A stretch of DNA of 64,000 nucleotides. It comes from an uncultured Gammaproteobacteria bacterium. Lineage in GTDB: Bacteria > Pseudomonadota > Gammaproteobacteria > Pseudomonadales > Pseudohongiellaceae. Below the pieces are notes generated by a model, which was not told the origin of the DNA, did not search any database, and saw nothing but the letters and a program-made list of their open reading frames with translations. The stretch is taken from the NCBI GenBank assembly GCA_903837345.1, contig CAILUG010000009.1:1-64000 (forward strand). Direction: 5' to 3'. How positions within the stretch are numbered: position 1 is the stretch's first letter; each line of letters starts with the position of its first letter. Position numbers and translations under genes: made by a program. Positions 1 through 33,678 of this stretch are shown here, piece after piece.

Positions 1-139
1 CTGCGAATTTCGACAATAATATCCATGTAATACACTCCAGATACCTCCGGCTAAAACGCCAGAGGATGACACACGGAGGTGGAAACTATTGGACGCTGTT
101 TCCACCCCTAATCTGGAAAGTTTTGCACGCTGATTAACA
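1..139 (-). mobile_element. End of an IS21-like element (partial)
   Basis: Read on the minus strand, the IS1595 transposase reading frame stops matching its family at 139. There a sequence begins with TGTTAATCAGC followed by GTGCAAAAC, the kind of TG-ended terminus seen in IS21-family elements. A 9-bp inverted repeat (78-86 and 98-106, GGTGGAAAC/GTTTCCACC) lies inside the end. At 26-24 an ATG, preceded by GGAG, opens a frame reading MDIIVEIR that runs off the window and could be the start of istA. Only the end is visible, so the family is an inference. Confidence 0.5.
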
Positions 140-902
140 AGATGCCTTTCATGCCACGCTTGAACACACTGAAATAGCCTTCGATTGTGTTGGTGTGGAT
201 TGAGTTATCCAGCGCGAAAACATATTCACCGCAGCTATGTTTTACAGTTCTGTGCGCTGCAAACTCACGGCCAATGCTTTTGTAATGCCGTGCATCATCA
301 GTCATCAGCCGGGCTTCTTTCGACATGTTCGCGTGCAGAATAGTGGCCAATGTATCAACTTTCAGATCATCCACGACCATGCTGCGTACTTTGCCGCTGT
401 TGCGATCAACAAGTGAAAGCACTTTATTTTTATGTGCGCTTGCTCGATGGCCGGCAGGTTTTTTGTAGACGTTGCCGATGAAGGCTTCATCAACTTCAAC
501 CACACCGCCGCCTTCACCAAACATTGAACCATTGTCACCCTTCATTGCTTCGCGTATGCGATGCGACATAAACCAAGCTGTCTTCAAAGTGACACCCAGG
601 GTGCGGTGAAGCTGGTTACTGCTGATGCCTTTTTTGCTGGAGCACATCAGGTAAATTGCTTGCAGCCAAAGGTGCATTTTCACGTGGCTGGACTCGAAAA
701 TAGTGCCCACTTTTACGGTGAAAGGCTTACGGCAGGCGTAGCACTTGTGAACACCAATCCTTGTGCTTTCGCCGCCCATCTTGCCGATTCTGTCCATACC
801 GCCGCAGAATGGGCAGTTCGGGCCTTTGGGCCACAGTTTCGACTCAACAAACGCATAGGCTGCTGTTTCATCGTGGAATTCTGGTCTGCTCAAAATGCTC
901 AT
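108..902 (-). pseudogene. IS1595-family transposase, 3' end disrupted
   Basis: This is the DDE transposase of an IS1595-type insertion sequence. It has an N-terminal zinc ribbon (CPFCGG, then CYACRK). The catalytic acidic residues lie in VVEVDEAF, TDDARHY and NTIEGYFSVFKRGMKG. The true start is the ATG at 902, with AGAGG six bases upstream; an in-frame GTG at 908 is less likely. After FKRGMKG the family normally runs on for some 50 more residues, but here it changes to an unrelated short tail (LLISVQNFPD) and stops. The break coincides with the IS21-like end at 139. The element is probably immobile unless supplied in trans. Confidence 0.85.
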
Positions 903-924
903 AGGCACCTCTCAACTTGAGGAA

Positions 925-12050: not shown

Positions 12051-12935
12051 ATGAAGGAAGCTGCACTCATCCTGTTCTTGCGAATATTGGCGCTGTTGCC
12101 GCTGCGGGTGGCGCGTGCGCTGGGCGCAGGCCTGGGCCGCGTCAACTGGTGGCTGCAAACCCGCATGACCAAAACCACCCTCACCAACCTGGCGCTGTGT
12201 TTTCCGCAAAAATCCGAGGCTGAACGGGGTGCACTGGCCCAGGCCAGCCTGCGCAACACCTTTCAGACCATCTGTGAAGCCGGCGCCATCTGGTTATGGC
12301 CGGCCGCCGAGACGCTGGCGCTGGTAACCGAAGTGGAAGGGCTGGATTTGTTGCAGGCGCTGAAAGCGCAGGGCAAGGGTGTGATCGTGCTGGCCCCGCA
12401 TCTGGGCAGTTGGGAAATGCTGGGTCTGTATCTGAATGTGTGTGGCTGTGGCCCCAGCAGCCAGTTGTATCAGGCGCCGCGCTCGCCAGCCTTGGGCAAA
12501 CTGATCTATGAAGCCCGCAGCCGCGCCGGTGCCAGGATGGTGAATACCGACAGCAAGGGCGTGGCTGAACTGCTGAAAACCCTGCGGCGTGGCGAGATTG
12601 TGGGCATTTTGCCCGATCAGGTGCCACCTGCCAGCGGCGGTGAGTTTGCCCCCTTCTTCGGCCTGCCAGCGCTGACGATGACATTGCTCAACCGCTTGCA
12701 ACAAAAAACCGGTGCGGCGGTGGTGATCGCCTATGCCAAGCGCATACCGGGCGGTTTTCGCATGGTGTTTCGCGAGGCAGCTGCCGGCATTGATAGCAGT
12801 GAGCTCGCCACCGGCCTCGCGGCACTCAACCGATCAGTGGAGTTGGCCGCGCTGGATGCCCCCGAGCAATACCAGTGGGAATACAAACGCTTCAAGCGCC
12901 AGCCTGAAGGCAAAAGCGAGCCCTACGCCAACTGA
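12051..12935 (+). CDS. Lipid A biosynthesis acyltransferase (LpxL/HtrB family)
   Basis: This family transfers a secondary acyl chain to lipid A at the inner membrane. The 294-residue protein starts with a hydrophobic segment (LILFLRILALLPLRVARAL). It contains the catalytic HLGSWE motif near residue 125 and GILPDQVP further on. The start ATG at 12051 gives the normal N-terminus. A homologue sits in the same place, near glyQ, in Pseudomonas. The gene overlaps the 3' end of the convergent rsmB by 13 bp. Which acyl chain it transfers cannot be read from sequence. Confidence 0.85.
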   Translation: MKEAALILFLRILALLPLRVARALGAGLGRVNWWLQTRMTKTTLTNLALCFPQKSEAERGALAQASLRNTFQTICEAGAIWLWPAAETLALVTEVEGLDLLQALKAQGKGVIVLAPHLGSWEMLGLYLNVCGCGPSSQLYQAPRSPALGKLIYEARSRAGARMVNTDSKGVAELLKTLRRGEIVGILPDQVPPASGGEFAPFFGLPALTMTLLNRLQQKTGAAVVIAYAKRIPGGFRMVFREAAAGIDSSELATGLAALNRSVELAALDAPEQYQWEYKRFKRQPEGKSEPYAN

Positions 12936-14233
12936 ACTCCGCGTTTGCGGAGCAGCGCGTAATAGAAACCGTCAGGGCCGTCTGCTTGCGGCAGCAATTG
13001 CACGCCAAAATCACACGCCAGTGCAGCTTCAATTGATAAAGCAACGGGCTCAGCATCAGCATGGTGTTCCACAAACTGCGCGATTTGCGCGCTGTTTTCC
13101 GCTTTCAGCAAAGAACAGGTGGAATAGAGCAAATAGCCGCCGGTTGCCAGCAAGGGCCACGCGGCTGCCAGCAGTGCGCGTTGCTTTGCCACCAACAGCT
13201 CCACTTCTGCGGGTGTGCGCAGCAGCTTGATATCCGGATGCCGGCGGATCACACCGGTGGCGGAACACGGCACATCGAGCAGAATGCGATCAAAGCGGCC
13301 AAATTCAGCGGCGGGCTCTTGCGTGATGTCGGCGCAGCGCACCTCGGCGTGCAGCTGCAAGCGATCGAGATTCTGCAGAATGCGCGGCAAGCGCCGCGCT
13401 TCATTGTCGAGCGCCAGCACTTGCAAGGTTGGCTCTGCTTCCAGCAATGCACAGGTTTTGCCGCCCGGTGCCGCACAGGCATCCAGCACCCGCAAACCGG
13501 GTGTCAGCGGCAGCACTGACGCCACCAGTTGTGAGGCTTCATCCTGCACACTCACCATGCCTTCGACAAAGCCCGGCAACCCCACCGCATCCATCGGCTG
13601 CGCCAGATACAGTGAATTGGGTGCAAGCAAGCCGGGTTTGGCAACAATACCCTCCGCTGCCAGCAATGCCTGGCACTCGGTGCGCGAAGCTTTGCGTTGA
13701 TTCACCCGCAAGGTCATTGGCGCCCGCTGGTTGTTGCCGTCGAGAATCGCGCGGTAGTGCTGCGGCCAATCCTGTTTCAGTTGTTGCAGCAGCCACTCGG
13801 GATGCGCATACCACACACTGTAATCACGCTCGGCCAGCGCCTGCAATTCTGCCTGTTGCCGCTGCGCATTGCGCAGCACCGCATTCACCAGCGCTTTCGC
13901 CCATGGCTTGCCGAGCGTATCCACCGCTGCCACGGTTTCATTCACGCAGGCGTGGTCGGGGGTGCGCATGAACAGCAACTGGTAGAGCCCCACCAGCAGC
14001 AGGCACTGCACATCGAGATCTTTCGCCCGCAGCGGCTTGTCCATCAGCTGCTGCAAATAGAACTGCAAGCGCGGCTGCCAGCGGCATACGCCATAGCAGA
14101 ATTCCTGCAACAGCGCCGGGCCCGTGGTTTGCGACAACACTTGCGCATTCAAGTGGCTGGCAAGCGAGCCCTGGTGTTGCATCAGCGCTGTCAGAATCTG
14201 GCAGGCCAGGATGCGGGGAGAAGAAACAGTCAT
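12923..14233 (-). CDS. rsmB: 16S rRNA (cytosine-967-C5) methyltransferase
   Basis: RsmB methylates C967 of 16S rRNA. The 436-residue protein has an N-terminal NusB-like domain, then a SAM-dependent RNA methyltransferase domain with DACAAPGGKT, the VPCSATGVIRRHPD motif carrying one conserved cysteine, and YSTCSLLKAEN carrying the catalytic cysteine. The start ATG at 14233 (MTVSSPRILA) is preferred over an upstream codon at 14266. fmt and def normally sit immediately upstream, but here 2.7 kb of cassette-like DNA separates fmt from rsmB. Confidence 0.95.
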   Translation of the reverse strand: MTVSSPRILACQILTALMQHQGSLASHLNAQVLSQTTGPALLQEFCYGVCRWQPRLQFYLQQLMDKPLRAKDLDVQCLLLVGLYQLLFMRTPDHACVNETVAAVDTLGKPWAKALVNAVLRNAQRQQAELQALAERDYSVWYAHPEWLLQQLKQDWPQHYRAILDGNNQRAPMTLRVNQRKASRTECQALLAAEGIVAKPGLLAPNSLYLAQPMDAVGLPGFVEGMVSVQDEASQLVASVLPLTPGLRVLDACAAPGGKTCALLEAEPTLQVLALDNEARRLPRILQNLDRLQLHAEVRCADITQEPAAEFGRFDRILLDVPCSATGVIRRHPDIKLLRTPAEVELLVAKQRALLAAAWPLLATGGYLLYSTCSLLKAENSAQIAQFVEHHADAEPVALSIEAALACDFGVQLLPQADGPDGFYYALLRKRGVQLA

Positions 14234-14303
14234 TGGATAACGGGGACAGGGAAAATTGATGCCCAATGATACAGGGACTATTGGGGTTTATCTTTTTCTG
14301 GTT

Positions 14304-14345
14304 GTTGGGCGCAGCCCGAACGAGTCCGGCAGCAGCTTGTTGGTG
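14304..14345 (-). repeat. Partial attC-like sequence
   Basis: Just after the 98-residue membrane gene, the minus strand reads CACCAACAAGCTGCTGCC then GGACTCGTTCGGG and ends GCGCCCAAC. This resembles the left half of an integron attC site (RYYYAAC core followed by a GC-rich arm). No matching right-hand GTTRRRY core is seen before rsmB, so the site would be truncated. Confidence 0.35.
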
Positions 14346-14348
14346 AAG

Positions 14349-14645
14349 TTATTTAAACTGCCTGGACCCAATGCTGATCCAGATAATCACAGCAAAAGTG
14401 GCAAAGAACAGCAGTGCACATCCCAGGATGCCGACAGCAGCATTGTCCCAACTGAATGGAGCAAACCCAAACGCAATTACCGGCAGAAGCAGGAATCGAT
14501 TCCCCGCCCATTTGTTGAGTTTTGCCATGTCTTTTGCGTTGCATCTGTCACTGCCGGCCAAAACGGAAGAATTGCCAGTGAACCTGACAAAAACCCCTAC
14601 AAAGGCAAAGAACACACCGAATAAAATCAACGCATCTAAAATCAA
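14349..14645 (-). CDS. Small membrane protein, cassette-borne
   Basis: The predicted protein has 98 residues and no function I can name. Hydrophobic segments at about residues 2-20, 50-66 and 70-92 suggest three membrane spans, with a short polar loop (SDRCNAKDMAKLNKWAGNR) between the first two. The shape resembles small DUF3784-like membrane proteins, but that is only an impression. The start lies 2 bp after the stop of the broken GNAT gene, so both may sit in one cassette. The gene is the last before rsmB. Confidence 0.55.
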   Translation of the reverse strand: MILDALILFGVFFAFVGVFVRFTGNSSVLAGSDRCNAKDMAKLNKWAGNRFLLLPVIAFGFAPFSWDNAAVGILGCALLFFATFAVIIWISIGSRQFK

Positions 14646-14647
14646 TT

Positions 14648-15118
14648 TTAAGGCCGCTCCTTATCCAGCTGCTTTGTCATAAAGACACTGTTTGGATCTT
14701 CTGCGTAGTCTCCAAACGGAGATGATTCCTTGAAACCAAAAGATGAATATAGCCTTCTGGCCGGTTCAAAAAAATCCATTGTCCCTGTTTCGAGACTCAG
14801 CCTTGAATATCCCCTGGATTTTGCTTCTTTAATCAAGTGCTTCAGTATGCGAGTAGCAATTCCCCTGCGTAAATATGCAGGTGCAGTTCTCATGGACTTT
14901 ATTTCAGCAAGTTCGTCGTCAAGATGCTTGATTGCGCCAAAGCCTGCCAGTTGCGAACCATCCCAAAGTGCTCAAAAGCTTATATCTGGACTGCGTAATC
15001 CATTGAGATCGAGAGCGTGGCGACTTTCAGGAGGAGCTGTATTTTCCATGGAGACAAGATGATAGCGGAGTAAATCTATCACCGGCTGACTCTCCAAATT
15101 GTCGATTTTAATTTCCAA
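14648..15118 (-). pseudogene. GNAT acetyltransferase, interrupted by an in-frame stop
   Basis: On the minus strand the frame from the TTG at 15118 reads an N-terminus LEIKIDNLESQPVIDLL, then PPESRHALDLNGLRSPDISF. A TGA at 14974-14972 follows, where relatives have a tryptophan. The frame continues ALWDGSQLAGFGAIKHL and EIKSMRTAPAYLRRGIATRI, the acetyl-CoA-binding region of GNAT enzymes, and ends at 14648. The full length would be 156 residues, normal for these small acetyltransferases. A single TGG-to-TGA change explains it. The ATG at 14893 could yield only an 81-residue C-terminal fragment. A sequencing error is the main alternative. Confidence 0.8.
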
Positions 15119-15131
15119 TCACTGTTCTTTT

Positions 15132-15220
15132 GTGAAACCTGGCGCCTGACGCCCATGAAAACGGGCGCGGCTTGCCGCGTCCCGCGCTGAAGGCGCATTG
15201 TTTTTCTGCTTTGTTAGCAC
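15132..15220 (-). repeat. attC-like recombination site
   Basis: On the minus strand the site opens GTGCTAACAAAGCAG (core RYYYAAC-like) just after the 232-residue cassette gene. It contains GC-rich inverted repeats (GCGCCT with AGGCGC, and a GCGGG...CCCG region) and ends GGTTTCAC. That end is a degenerate right core compared with GTTAGCAC. It lies exactly between two unrelated genes, as an attC should. Confidence 0.55.
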
Positions 15221-15228
15221 TTTTGCAC

Positions 15229-15927
15229 TCATATCGAAGGAGCTGACAGCACTTCTTGCTTAAGCGATTCACGCTCATCAGACAGGACGGCCGCCCGGCA
15301 GCTATCACCCTTCAGCGTTGCTTCTGAGAACGCAACAGAAAGAGCAAGATACCGACGAGGCCAGTCTCCTTTGTCGTCAAGTCCTATCCGAGCGATGTTT
15401 CCTATGTCAAACCAGAATTGGTATGCAATGCTTAGATGTCTCAGCTCTTCATCCTGCTCTGGGAAGCCTTGGTATGTTTTGCTAGGGAAATATTGAGCAT
15501 AGACTCGCGGGGCAAAAACCTGAAACGATTCGTAAAGGCCAGAGGTGGATTCATGTCGGATGCCACTCAGAACTTCTGACTCATATGTAGAAGCCGGAGT
15601 GTATAAAGCACGGAGAGCTGCGTATTCGCCAGTTAGCGAGATAATCCATGATCGGCATTCAAACTGCCTATTTTTAGATTTTGAAATTTCCAATAATTGA
15701 AGGCCAACTGCGCGGCTGGCCATTTTTCTAAAATCATCTGTCATCTGCGTTTGCATGACATATGACGCGAGATTGCCTTTCGCGTAGTCGGCATTATTGA
15801 GGTAAAGATTGACGCAGATATAGGTCTGACGCAGCCATACATCATTTATGAGCTGACGCTTTAGCTCCGATTCAAACGCTTTTGCTCCGAACCAGTCACT
15901 AAGCCACTTTGTAATTTTTTGGAGCAT
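15229..15927 (-). CDS. Hypothetical cassette protein, 232 residues
   Basis: I do not recognise this protein. From the ATG at 15927 it has 232 residues; an in-frame TTG at 15945 would add six. It has no signal peptide or membrane span and looks soluble and mainly helical. Aromatic-rich stretches include YAQYFPSKTYQGFPEQDEEL and SIAYQFWFDIGNIARI. It starts 22 bp inside one attC-like site and stops 9 bp before the next, the exact layout of a single-gene integron cassette. Base composition looks more AT-rich than that of the flanking rsmB and fmt genes. Confidence 0.65.
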   Translation of the reverse strand: MLQKITKWLSDWFGAKAFESELKRQLINDVWLRQTYICVNLYLNNADYAKGNLASYVMQTQMTDDFRKMASRAVGLQLLEISKSKNRQFECRSWIISLTGEYAALRALYTPASTYESEVLSGIRHESTSGLYESFQVFAPRVYAQYFPSKTYQGFPEQDEELRHLSIAYQFWFDIGNIARIGLDDKGDWPRRYLALSVAFSEATLKGDSCRAAVLSDERESLKQEVLSAPSI

Positions 15928-15948
15928 GCTCTGAGTTCCGTTCAAGTA

Positions 15949-16064
15949 GTGCTAACGCCAAGGTAAGCGGCGCAAAAGCGGAGCATCAGTTGCGCATAAA
16001 ATGGCGTAGCCATGCGCAACTGATGCGGAGTCTATTGCGTCCGTTTTGACCGCCTTGTTAGCGC
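15949..16064 (-). repeat. attC recombination site
   Basis: This is the clearest attC in the island. The minus strand opens GCGCTAACAAGGCGGTC and closes GCTTACCTTGGCGTTAGCAC, so the two cores (GCTAAC/GTTAGC) and adjacent arms (AAGG/CCTT) are complementary. Inside lies a perfect 15-bp inverted repeat (GCATCAGTTGCGCAT and its complement) around a 14-base loop. The length of about 116 bp is within the attC range. It separates the 132-residue gene, whose stop lies in its first bases, from the 232-residue gene. Confidence 0.8.
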
Positions 16065-16456
16065 TCATTTCGTGGCTCCAATGACTTGGATGTGAAGCCG
16101 CCGGATGGCATAGAGTTTGTCCATTCATCTGACCGAACTCCACCGAGGAATTTAAAAACTTGCAAGAAATGCCCTCTACCTCCGCGCTCAATGGCGATCG
16201 TCCACTGCCCCTCGATATGACAAGCGCCAAAGAAGCGAGCTCGAGGTGTCGAATCACTTATGACATCAGTGGGGTTAAATGGACCACCTTGCGGTGATAC
16301 GTCTCCACCCGTTGTCTTGGAAATTTCGCCGCGAATCTCAGGAGGAATGTCAGACCACTTAATGTCCGTACATTTCACTTCCGCTGCAGCGACAGAAGCA
16401 CCTGTAAATCCCAGAGCAAGAGCCAGATAAATTGTTTTGGTCCGCTTATAACGCAT
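16058..16456 (-). CDS. Hypothetical exported protein, cassette-borne
   Basis: The 132-residue product has an N-terminal signal peptide (basic MRYKRTK, hydrophobic IYLALALGFTGASVA, probable cleavage after AAA). The mature part is about 107 residues with two cysteines (VKCTDIKW and FGACHIEGQW), which could form a periplasmic disulfide. I do not recognise the family. The last codons run into the attC site at 16064, typical of cassette genes. It starts 2 bp after the 75-residue gene upstream, so the two probably share a cassette and transcript. Confidence 0.6.
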   Translation of the reverse strand: MRYKRTKTIYLALALGFTGASVAAAEVKCTDIKWSDIPPEIRGEISKTTGGDVSPQGGPFNPTDVISDSTPRARFFGACHIEGQWTIAIERGGRGHFLQVFKFLGGVRSDEWTNSMPSGGFTSKSLEPRNER

Positions 16457-16458
16457 TA

Positions 16459-16686
16459 TTAGCCTGATACTTTCTGGTCTGAGCGCTCGACCAAAGCATC
16501 TTTCTTCCCTTGGTCGTATGCTGCGCGCGTGGACGAGAAAAGCATACAGACAAACATCGCAGCCCCTGCTCCCGCGCCGGCTGAACCCCGGAAATCAGTA
16601 ACGCTTGCTACGACCAGTGTGACTAACAAAACCCCGAGTAGCCCCCCGGCAGCATATTTAATGGCTATTAGAGTTGGCTGTTTCAT
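16459..16686 (-). CDS. Small membrane protein, cassette-borne
   Basis: The 75-residue product has two hydrophobic segments (about residues 8-28 and 36-51) and a basic, charged tail (YDQGKKDALVERSDQK). The shape recalls small two-span proteins often found in gene cassettes. A GAGGGGAC ribosome site lies upstream of the ATG, about 20 bp after a GTTAGC core, where the first gene of a cassette would begin. Function unknown. Confidence 0.55.
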   Translation of the reverse strand: MKQPTLIAIKYAAGGLLGVLLVTLVVASVTDFRGSAGAGAGAAMFVCMLFSSTRAAYDQGKKDALVERSDQKVSG

Positions 16687-16703
16687 ACTGTGTCCCCTCT
16701 TAA

Positions 16704-16752
16704 GCTAACAGTTCATATAAAAGGCCTAAACGGCCTTTTAATATTTATTAGC
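16704..16752 (-). repeat. Short attC-like palindrome (or terminator)
   Basis: On the minus strand GCTAAT opens and GTTAGC closes a 49-base near-palindrome built on AAAAGGCC/GGCCTTTT with a five-base loop. The cores and the position just upstream of the 75-residue gene fit an attC at the island's fmt-proximal edge. The GC-stem with flanking A and T runs could equally be a two-way transcription terminator. Confidence 0.45.
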
Positions 16753-16931
16753 AGGCGGCCTTTATATTTTTTTGGAAACGAAAGTACTTTTCGTAACTGC
16801 CTGAAGCAGTGCGAGAATTCTGAGCATTCAATTGCAGGGAAGAGTGTTAGAAGGCCGGCGGCCTTGAATATATCGGAATAAAGAGCCATCCCTGCCCTTG
16901 CTGCCGCTTGAATGGAATTGAACCCGGCCAT
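16713..16931 (-). CDS. Possible small hypothetical protein
   Basis: A 72-codon frame begins 31 bp after fmt, with GGGAG seven bases upstream of its ATG, and ends inside the attC-like palindrome at 16704-16752. That end position is usual for a cassette gene. The protein (start MAGFNSIQAAARAGMALY) matches nothing I know and has no clear domain. It could be a gene remnant or chance. It is the only candidate gene between fmt and the palindrome. Confidence 0.3.
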   Translation of the reverse strand: MAGFNSIQAAARAGMALYSDIFKAAGLLTLFPAIECSEFSHCFRQLRKVLSFPKKYKGRLLINIKRPFRPFI

Positions 16932-16961
16932 GTTCGCGCTCCCTGCTGTGATGTGCGACTA

Positions 16962-17909
16962 CTATAGCGTATCGCCCACTTTGAAAAAATCCGGATATCC
17001 GTTCAGCAGGCTGCCTATGTCCATGGCTGGTTTGCCTTCGGTTTGCACGTCGAACACTTCCAGCACGCTGTTGCCGCAAGCTATTTTGAGGGAAGTGTTA
17101 GTCACATTCAGCACGGTCCCGGGCGAAGCTGAACTGCGGTCAGCACTTACTGTGGTGCGGATCAGCCGCACGCGTTTGCCATCCACCAGGCACCAGGCCG
17201 GGGAGCGTGGATAGAGCGCCCGCACCTGGTTATGGAGGTCGGCGGCACTGTGGGTCCAGATGATCCGGGATTCTTCTTTCTGGATCTTGCGGGCGTAGGT
17301 TACCAGCGCGGGGTCTTGGGCTGTGGCCGCTGGAGTGCCTGCAGGCAAAGTAGTCAGCAAATCACACAACGCCTCACACCCCAGTTGCTGCAGGCGGGCG
17401 GTCAAGGTGGCGGCGTTGTCGTCAGCCCGGATGGGAGTGAGCACACGTTTCAATACCGGGCCCGTGTCCAGGCCCTGTTCCATTTGCATCAGGCACACGC
17501 CGCTCTCGTGGTCGCCACTCAGCAGGGCTCGCTCTATCGGCGCGGCACCCCGCCAGCGCGGCAACAGCGAGGCATGCACATTGATACAACCGTACTTGGG
17601 CAGCGCCAGCACCGCCGGCGGCAACAACAAACCATAGGCCACCACCACCATCACATCGGGCTGATACGCCTGCAGGGTCGCCATTGTTTGCGGGTCGTTG
17701 AACGACAGCGGCTGCTCGACTGGAATGCCATGGCTTTCGGCCACCGCTTTTACTGGCGTAGCGGTCAGTTTCTTGCCGCGGCCACTGGGTCGATCAGGCT
17801 GTGAGTAGGCGCCTACTACCGTGAAACCCCTTGTAATGACTAACTCAAGATGCGCGGCGGCAAACTCGGGCGTACCCGCAAACACGATGCGCAGCGCTGG
17901 GTTGGTCAT
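16962..17909 (-). CDS. fmt: Methionyl-tRNA formyltransferase
   Basis: Fmt formylates initiator Met-tRNA. The 315-residue protein has the N-terminal formyltransferase fold (RIVFAGTPEFAAAHL). It also has the catalytic asparagine/histidine region NVHASLLPRWRGAAP, and the C-terminal tRNA-binding domain. It lies 59 bp downstream of def in the usual def-fmt order, but rsmB, the normal next gene, is displaced by the cassette island. Confidence 0.96.
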   Translation of the reverse strand: MTNPALRIVFAGTPEFAAAHLELVITRGFTVVGAYSQPDRPSGRGKKLTATPVKAVAESHGIPVEQPLSFNDPQTMATLQAYQPDVMVVVAYGLLLPPAVLALPKYGCINVHASLLPRWRGAAPIERALLSGDHESGVCLMQMEQGLDTGPVLKRVLTPIRADDNAATLTARLQQLGCEALCDLLTTLPAGTPAATAQDPALVTYARKIQKEESRIIWTHSAADLHNQVRALYPRSPAWCLVDGKRVRLIRTTVSADRSSASPGTVLNVTNTSLKIACGNSVLEVFDVQTEGKPAMDIGSLLNGYPDFFKVGDTL

Positions 17910-32589: not shown

Positions 32590-33237
32590 ATGAACAAAGG
32601 TGTAGCCAATACCGTCATCGGGTTAGTGGCCTTCATGGCACTGTTGCTGGGCCTGTTGGTGCACAGGGTGCTGACACCGGCCACGATGACGCAACAGCAG
32701 CTCAGCGACAACGGCTTGTTTGTTTACGAGTTGCCACGCCGCATCACCGATTTCACGCTGATCGATCACAACAACCAGCCCTTCATGAAGGACAAACTCA
32801 AAGGCCGCTGGACCCTGATGTTCTTTGGCTACACCAGCTGCCCCGATGTGTGCCCCACCACGCTGGCCAGCATTCGCCAGTTCAGGCAATTGCTGAAAGA
32901 AGCCGATGCCAAGGCTGCTGCCAGAGTGCAGGTGGTGTTTGTTTCCGTGGATCCGATGCGCGACACGCCGGAAAAACTGGCAGCCTATGTGCATTATTTT
33001 GGCGAGGACTACATTGGCACCACCGGCGAGTACATCAACATCTTCAATCTGGCGCACCAGCTGAATATTGCGTTTGCCTATCTGCCGGCCAAGGAAGGCA
33101 ACTATGATGTTTCACACAGTGGCGAAATTGCGCTGATCAATCCGGAAGGTGATTTTCACGGCTTCTTCAAATCGCCGCCTGACCCGCAGAAGATGCTGCA
33201 AACGTTCCGGTCCATGCTGAAAGGCTGGCAGCACTAG
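32590..33237 (+). CDS. SCO1/SenC family copper chaperone
   Basis: SCO proteins deliver copper to CuA of subunit II. The 215-residue protein has an N-terminal span and a thioredoxin fold with the copper-binding motif GYTSCPDVCPTTL and the distal histidine in DVSHSGEIAL. The start is the ATG at 32590, 11 bp after ctaB; longer frames overlap ctaB. It is the last gene of the oxidase assembly run. Confidence 0.94.
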   Translation: MNKGVANTVIGLVAFMALLLGLLVHRVLTPATMTQQQLSDNGLFVYELPRRITDFTLIDHNNQPFMKDKLKGRWTLMFFGYTSCPDVCPTTLASIRQFRQLLKEADAKAAARVQVVFVSVDPMRDTPEKLAAYVHYFGEDYIGTTGEYINIFNLAHQLNIAFAYLPAKEGNYDVSHSGEIALINPEGDFHGFFKSPPDPQKMLQTFRSMLKGWQH

Positions 33238-33243
33238 TCCGCC

Positions 33244-33678
33244 CTATTCTATTTCCGCCAGTCTTACTCTTTTTTCATCCCGACGCTTTTCGACCAGAGT
33301 ACGCAATTGTTCACGTAATTCGCCGCCATTGATTACGGCGGGAATGCATGAAACCGGGGTGGTTGAATCGGAAGAAACTATCTCGATGTTGCCAAGCCCG
33401 AACAGCCGCAATAAAAACGGCTGGTCAAAGCGGGTATCTTTCACGCGGTAGAGTTCAAGTTCCTCCGTCTTCTTGTTGAGGACTCCGCTGTGGACTTTCA
33501 AGCGCTGCGAAGTAAGTTCATAGACCTGGCATCTGATAACCAGAAAGCGCCAAAACCCATAAGGGATTGCAACGACAGCTCCTACCACTGTCAATGAAAC
33601 CAGTCCGCAAACCACATAGGTGCCGAGATTGATAATCTGGGATGGGCGCCCAGTCCATACTTGAGCTTCTGGTGTCAT
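33244..33678 (-). CDS. PH-domain (bPH2) membrane protein
   Basis: From the ATG at 33678 the product has 144 residues: two membrane spans near the N-terminus (LGTYVVCGLVSLTVVGAVVA and YGFWRFLVI), then a bacterial PH-like domain (VYELTSQRLKVHSGVLNKKTEELELYRV is split across the motif). The end is rich in charged residues. Function unknown; such proteins are usually membrane-associated. It converges with the SCO1 gene. Confidence 0.75.
   Translation of the reverse strand: MTPEAQVWTGRPSQIINLGTYVVCGLVSLTVVGAVVAIPYGFWRFLVIRCQVYELTSQRLKVHSGVLNKKTEELELYRVKDTRFDQPFLLRLFGLGNIEIVSSDSTTPVSCIPAVINGGELREQLRTLVEKRRDEKRVRLAEIE

Follow-up and report, generated by a model that had tools for sequence, protein, structure and literature searches.

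An attI-headed gene cassette array without an adjoining intI gene between fmt and rsmB of a Pseudohongiellaceae bacterium

What is the 2.7-kb block that separates fmt from rsmB in an uncultured gammaproteobacterium of the family Pseudohongiellaceae, and how did it come to stand there without an integrase gene beside it? We address this question on positions 1 to 64,000 of contig CAILUG010000009.1 (assembly GCA_903837345.1), hereafter the window. A sequence-only reading had taken the block for an integrase-less group of integron gene cassettes, i.e., a remnant of the CALIN type (cluster of attC sites lacking an integron-integrase). We find that the block is foreign DNA, that its head is an attI site identified together with DNA of the intI side, and that it carries one clear and one degenerate attC site, not three or four as previously proposed. 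The block probably represents an integron array that kept attI and cassettes and lost intI in place.

The attI head, the attC sites and the search for intI

The features that carry this reading are the following.
16704..16763, minus strand: attI (58 bits, E 2.5e-11 with the attI model R2; alignment with the eight model sites)
16845..16894, minus strand: relic of the intI promoter side (84% over 50 bp to DNA of genome G002 that ends ~38 nt before the intI start)
15950..16063, minus strand: attC of cassette 1 (20.7 bits, E 0.0049 in 64 kb with the attC model R1; fold)
15144..15219, minus strand: degenerate attC of cassette 2 (R1 8.5 bits, E 0.43 in 3.6 kb; crossover triplet GTC)

The attI model R2 is a covariance model of eight intI-adjacent sites, seven from the family and one from Exilibacterium, none from the genome under study; other types of attI, frequent next to further intI genes in the family, are outside its scope. 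Its only match in the window is the site at the array head, and the genome holds just one more, at 3189-3247 of contig C38 beside rsmD (G and C labels denote genomes and their contigs, L labels the stretches taken from them; the window contig is C9). The crossover GTT lies at 16707-16709 and the first cassette begins at 16706. The weak attC that had been proposed at 16704-16752 is thus a recombination site of the other kind. In a family genome search, the right end of the block matched DNA beside intI in G002 and G004, and C9, C38, G002, and G004 have a common sequence up to CTGTT, which includes the crossover GTT, followed by different cassettes. Similarity to the intI side of G002 extends to ~38 nt (C9) or 42 nt (C38) before the intI start, and the local alignment of 16840-16961 with G002 scores 90.5 as compared to a maximum of 48 in 300 shuffles.

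The eight model sites form a common hairpin with paired base changes. Its pairing (95.3% of cells) and the nine cells changed on both sides were reached by none of 500 shuffles, although pairs with a double change (three) were reached by 110 and extra pair types by 35 of the 500. A terminator-like match falls on this hairpin (16718-16740, plus strand), in a region with four such matches where 3.2 were expected. The hairpin as a plain terminator was set aside; attI sites of another type often have a palindrome at this place as well, without a T run, as judged by eye. Among the attI sites of L063-L081 and L140, a perfect stem of at least six was present in 13 of 18 intI-side sites versus 5.4% of random stretches; these palindromes differ in sequence and stand within 38 nt before the crossover.

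The attC model R1 was built from 28 attC sites in intI-adjacent arrays of other family genomes, with sites of the studied genome excluded; a home-made palindrome scorer was used only for collecting attC sites beside intI. R1 matched 15950-16063 and nothing else in the window. At genome scale the best match was C38:2480-2593 (37.3 bits, E 1.2e-5), followed by the window site (E 0.254) and a partial site on contig C47, close to the contig end (18.6 bits, E 0.9). The window attC is 83% identical to C38:2482-2590. Folded as single-stranded DNA, its plus strand, the bottom strand for the cassettes, forms a single hairpin over its full length in which the boxes pair (z -5.8), while the minus strand folds equally strongly through an inner repeat (z -6.4) with its ends unpaired. 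The proposal of an attC at 15949-16064 is borne out by the model match and the end-to-end fold of the plus strand. A second attC, proposed at 15132-15220, is placed by R1 at 15144-15219 and holds up as regards its boundary, which a homologous cassette in G004 confirms, but the site is degenerate; it lies on the same strand as the first. The stretch 14304-14345, regarded as a truncated attC, had no R1 match and a fold of z -0.6.

Comparison with relatives bears out that extra DNA lies between fmt and rsmB. Of 37 genomes searched for fmt, the studied one and 36 relatives, 36 matched, including the studied one. The fmt-rsmB gap was -5 to 81 bp in 27 of the 29 relatives' loci examined, with six further matching relatives outside the comparison; L023 stops at a contig edge so that its gap is not measurable, and in L005 (G003) rsmB was not found within 8.7 kb downstream of fmt. 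Across the fmt loci of the relatives (107,677 bases), R1 had no match. The block is also AT-richer, as had been stated, with a G+C content of 0.44-0.50 (14250-16999) versus mostly 0.53-0.63 in the flanks. A further stretch of G003 (L128, contig C5) has fmt and the rsmD-ftsY region on one contig in a different gene order, and a downstream rsmB was not found.

No integrase gene was detected. The profile TIGR02249, run over the genome, gave no match at E 0.001. A tblastn search with two IntI proteins against the window and stretches of C38 (20 kb) and C47 (12 kb) yielded nothing better than E 0.48, in agreement with the earlier statement that the window lacks an integrase. The draft genome comprises 63 contigs, and only two places turned up when tyrosine recombinases of all kinds were sought with PF00589, neither of them clearly XerC or XerD; the integrase search or the draft may therefore miss genes. 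An Rfam scan gave one sub-threshold match, inside def.

Cassettes, cargo and further integron traces

The remaining features of the block and its borders are listed from fmt to rsmB.
16962-17909, minus strand: fmt, the other border of the 2.7-kb block
16459..16686, minus strand: cassette 1, hydrophobic open reading frame of 75 aa without a family match above cut-off (reading frame list, family scans)
16058..16456, minus strand: cassette 1, open reading frame of 132 aa, signal-peptide-like start (by eye), stop codon inside the attC
15229..15927, minus strand: cassette 2, open reading frame of 232 aa, an orphan found in the studied genome only (1 of 390 genomes of the order)
14648..15118, minus strand: cassette 3, GNAT acetyltransferase (PF00583, E 7.6e-10 on an 81-aa part)
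14349..14645, minus strand: open reading frame of 98 aa, DUF3784-like below cut-off (20.3 versus 28.1 bits); no recognisable attC follows
14234..14348, minus strand: array end adjoining rsmB, which contains the unsupported site at 14304-14345
12923-14233, minus strand: rsmB, with the block as its right neighbour

The GNAT gene provides the cassette boundary. Its counterpart in G004 (C373) has 82% DNA identity to 14648-15118 and stands behind a different attC-like site, which is 83% identical to the window attC at 15950-16063. The similarity between the two GNAT stretches starts at the crossover triplet (GTT in G004, GTC in the window) and AGGCGCC, and the homologue in G060 sits between two R1 attC matches. 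The same start base in G004 and the flanking attC sites in G060 imply cassette behaviour of the GNAT gene in three genomes, the studied one, G004, and G060. In the window copy, codon 48 is followed by an in-frame stop, whereas the G004 copy is intact. The 132-aa protein was likewise found in the studied genome only (1 of 390 order genomes), with one weak plasmid match (36% over 71 residues). No relative of the 232-aa protein was detected in genome contigs, plasmids, or PDB sequences, and its structure prediction without alignment had a mean pLDDT (predicted local distance difference test) of 36.9. The suggestion that the cargo is defensive found no support, as PADLOC returned no match at E 1 for five block proteins.

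The window reads dnaA (1264), glyS-glyQ, rsmB, fmt-def, and then later genes, with names taken from a reading of the open reading frames and Pfam support for rsmB and fmt. An IS1595-family (ISXO2-like) transposase at 108-908 (minus strand) adjoins dnaA.

The second attI match of the genome belongs to another attI-headed array beside rsmD (L037, C38 2050-3400), where intI was not found either. Its first cassette encodes a HigB-like toxin (below cut-off) paired with a helix-turn-helix protein, and the rsmD tail at this locus extends some 10-15 residues beyond the part with matches in relatives. Duplication of one of the two arrays into the other was considered and rejected, as C9 resembles G002 at least as closely as it does C38. 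In the near relative G007 (L138, C23 ~33200-33300), inspection by eye shows part of a VOC-like gene and half an attC behind the end of rsmD, without an R1 match; these traces may be what is left of an integron at the locus of the C38 array. Contig C47 may hold a lone cassette close to its edge (49-453, L137), with a 104-aa open reading frame and the partial attC ranked third by R1; the gene upstream of it resembles a dehydrogenase, as judged by eye. The IntI of record CAMDML010000054.1 (L139), which matches contig C54 of G002, reaches no more than 57% identity to any of the other 79 records among the matches listed, so the title of this record, Klebsiella pneumoniae MAG, looks doubtful.

attI sites across the family

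R2 was run over 119 family genomes at E <=0.001; owing to stricter filters, the counts are lower bounds. It located at least 36 attI places in 19 genomes, up to six per genome, some of them beside tRNA or housekeeping genes (tRNA genes at 5 of 30 loci). G046 alone has at least six attI places with one intI match. A full-length intI adjoins seven of the 36 places, which are the seven family training sites of R2; the other 29 have none adjoining. Broken intI genes stand near three of these 29, in G020 (69 codons), at G052 C6 (198 codons), and in G100 (182 codons with a stop, ~1 kb from the attI and with an attC between). At the other 26, tblastn at E 0.001 found no intI match on an intI-side flank of at least 0.89 kb, and DNA traces of intI were seen at two of them (G046 C17:238k and G049 C45). 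Such decay of intI elsewhere in the family supports loss of the gene as the reading of the window array. The crossover triplet is altered at two of the 29 places (G046 C14, G099 C92). A fixed left end common to all intI-less copies was considered and rejected; detectable homology stops at varying distances.

Within the fetched stretches, 20 of the 29 intI-less places have a same-strand attC downstream, among them C9 and C38 of the studied genome, G044 C6, G046 C15, and G052 C6; the weakest attC counted is that of G020 (E 0.03). All 17 attC matches of one scan were on the strand of the attI, one of them (G100) upstream of it.

Two pairs of orthologous intI-less attI loci differ in their first cassettes. 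At G015 C56 and G044 C6, a locus with pgsA (by eye) and tRNA genes for Gly, Cys, and Leu, the left flank is 82-98% identical and its last 60 nt 97%, while identity beyond GTT is 0.59-0.62 as compared to 0.57 for random 60-nt sequences. G062 C8 and G022 C3 have flanks of 91-97% identity followed by 0.59-0.61 beyond the crossover. The 634-bp cassette that comes first at G015 C56 matches one in the intI-led array of G044 at 98.1% identity, versus 93% for the flank shared with G044 C6, and a further cassette of that intI-led array at 97.6%. The intI-less arrays of G046, compared with 20 kb of its intI-led array, have only attC-like pieces in common and no whole cassettes. Site-exact change of cassettes at intI-less attI sites is best explained by IntI, acting either from elsewhere or before its loss. 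Homologous recombination in the flanks could be an alternative source of cassette or array exchange.

Origin and meaning of the array

An attI and intI-side DNA at the array head point to a decapitated integron array rather than to cassettes landing at a random site. IntI would have inserted circular cassettes by recombining the folded bottom strand of attC with double-stranded attI; cassette insertion at attI by IntI is known chemistry, as passages of PMC8946536 describe. Insertion at attI accounts for cassettes that point away from it and start right after the crossover triplet (GTT; GTC at the worn site). The intI gene, with an expected start near 16930 and running toward fmt, would then have been lost except for part of its promoter side. 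The array shares its direction with the def-fmt-rsmB row that surrounds it, and the cassette genes may be co-transcribed with this operon. Deprived of an integrase, the array would be frozen and decaying, and wear is visible in the degenerate attC (15144-15219) and in the stop of the GNAT gene.

Several results speak against this origin of the array. At the attI loci of both C9 and C38, tblastn detected nothing of the intI body, so that the loss in place is something we only infer. Just one attC in the array passes R1 clearly. At E 1, R1 recognised no attC in the G004 stretch (L086), where the site was identified by its 83% identity to the window attC, nor did it report any next to the homologous GNAT genes in G022 (L090) and G072 (L091). 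A sigma-70-like consensus scan of 14200-17050 found no cassette promoter Pc where shuffles gave 3.2 expected matches, and such a scan cannot exclude one. The last 67 bp before fmt (16895-16961) are near chance in their similarity to G002, with 8 of 300 shuffles as good. Against the main attC itself, the palindrome scorer gave 15950-16063 a value of 12.5, which shuffles also reach, and ranked 14711-14793 (13.2) above it; too weak to separate the site from shuffles, it was dropped as a judge of the window attC.

Alternatively, the array may never have needed an adjoining intI if remote attI sites receive their cassettes in trans from a single IntI that is encoded elsewhere or enters the cell, a proposal that we regard as rather unlikely for the window but that draws on much of the family survey: the 29 attI places without full-length intI, the attC sites downstream of 20 of them, the several attI places of G046, the two orthologous locus pairs that are alike up to the crossover and near random identity beyond it, and the G015 cassette with its near-identical counterpart in an intI-led array. 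However, a trans-acting enzyme is not seen at present in the studied genome (E 0.001) or in G015, G062, and G022 (E 1e-30), since no intI match was found there. Relics of intI at some attI sites point to loss in place, the intI-less arrays of G046 share no whole cassettes with the part of its intI-led array compared, exchange of arrays through homologous flanks could produce a similar picture, and the proposal calls for a further mechanism that spreads attI to new loci. Cassettes might also have been inserted at a non-classical chromosomal site (attG) that lacks attI. Passages of PMC12444791 mention insertion at attG sites in E. coli, and C47:49-453 may be such a lone cassette; a search of open-access literature aimed at attG papers found none. 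With an attI and intI-side DNA at the beginning of the array, this origin is very improbable for the block. An ordinary genomic island with chance palindromes would agree with the failure of the crude palindrome score to set the main attC apart from shuffles. It is refuted in the main, and hardly credible, given that the attC and attI models each have one window match, both inside the block, that R1 is silent at the relatives' fmt loci, and that the GNAT cassette is shared with an exact boundary.

The block as an integron array that lost intI in place is itself a modest variation on known integron remnants; the family-wide pattern is the interesting part. As in a CALIN, there are attC cassettes with no intI nearby, and to this extent the earlier assignment stands; the array is, however, no bare attC cluster, as it has an attI and intI-side DNA at its head and just one clear attC. 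Passages of PMC9024848 describe IntegronFinder 2 as reporting a CALIN from two attC sites by default, and here the second site has E 0.43. In terms of a complete integron, the attI and attC sites of one orientation are present and an adjoining intI was not found in the draft genome. Sedentary chromosomal integrons with a lost or broken intI, such as those of Treponema phagedenis and Xanthomonas, for which parts of PMC3607928 and PMC12444791 report integron loss and CALINs, likewise have attC remnants at a chromosomal site without a working intI. In contrast to these, attI is identified here, one genome holds two such arrays, and orthologous intI-less attI loci of relatives differ in their first cassettes. 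Delta-attI-type gene cassettes of mobile integrons also place attI sequence away from its normal position, and the abstract of PMC12901181 assigns attI or partial attI sites to unusual cassettes of mobile integrons, whereas here a full attI core heads chromosomal arrays. That an IntI acting in trans can excise or capture CALIN cassettes has already been stated (passages of PMC9668308 and PMC12444791). In the titles, abstract openings, and passages of the open-access literature covered, we found no account of intI-less attI sites across a chromosome or of a paired-base attI hairpin.

It is tempting to propose, if tentatively and at somewhat less than even chances, that the integron of this family is a distributed system, with attI at several chromosomal places, mostly without intI, and with cassettes exchanged via a trans-acting integrase; many CALINs and the window array would then be outposts of such a system. 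The origin of integrase-less cassette clusters is unsettled between decayed integrons and stray insertions. According to passages of PMC9024848, the standard tool detects attI in class 1 integrons only, which means that clusters headed by an attI would be classed as CALINs. With an attI covariance model, the question of CALIN origin can be put to large-scale tests. Natural evidence that a docking site can work, or once did, at a distance from its enzyme comes from the orthologous intI-less attI loci whose first cassettes differ.

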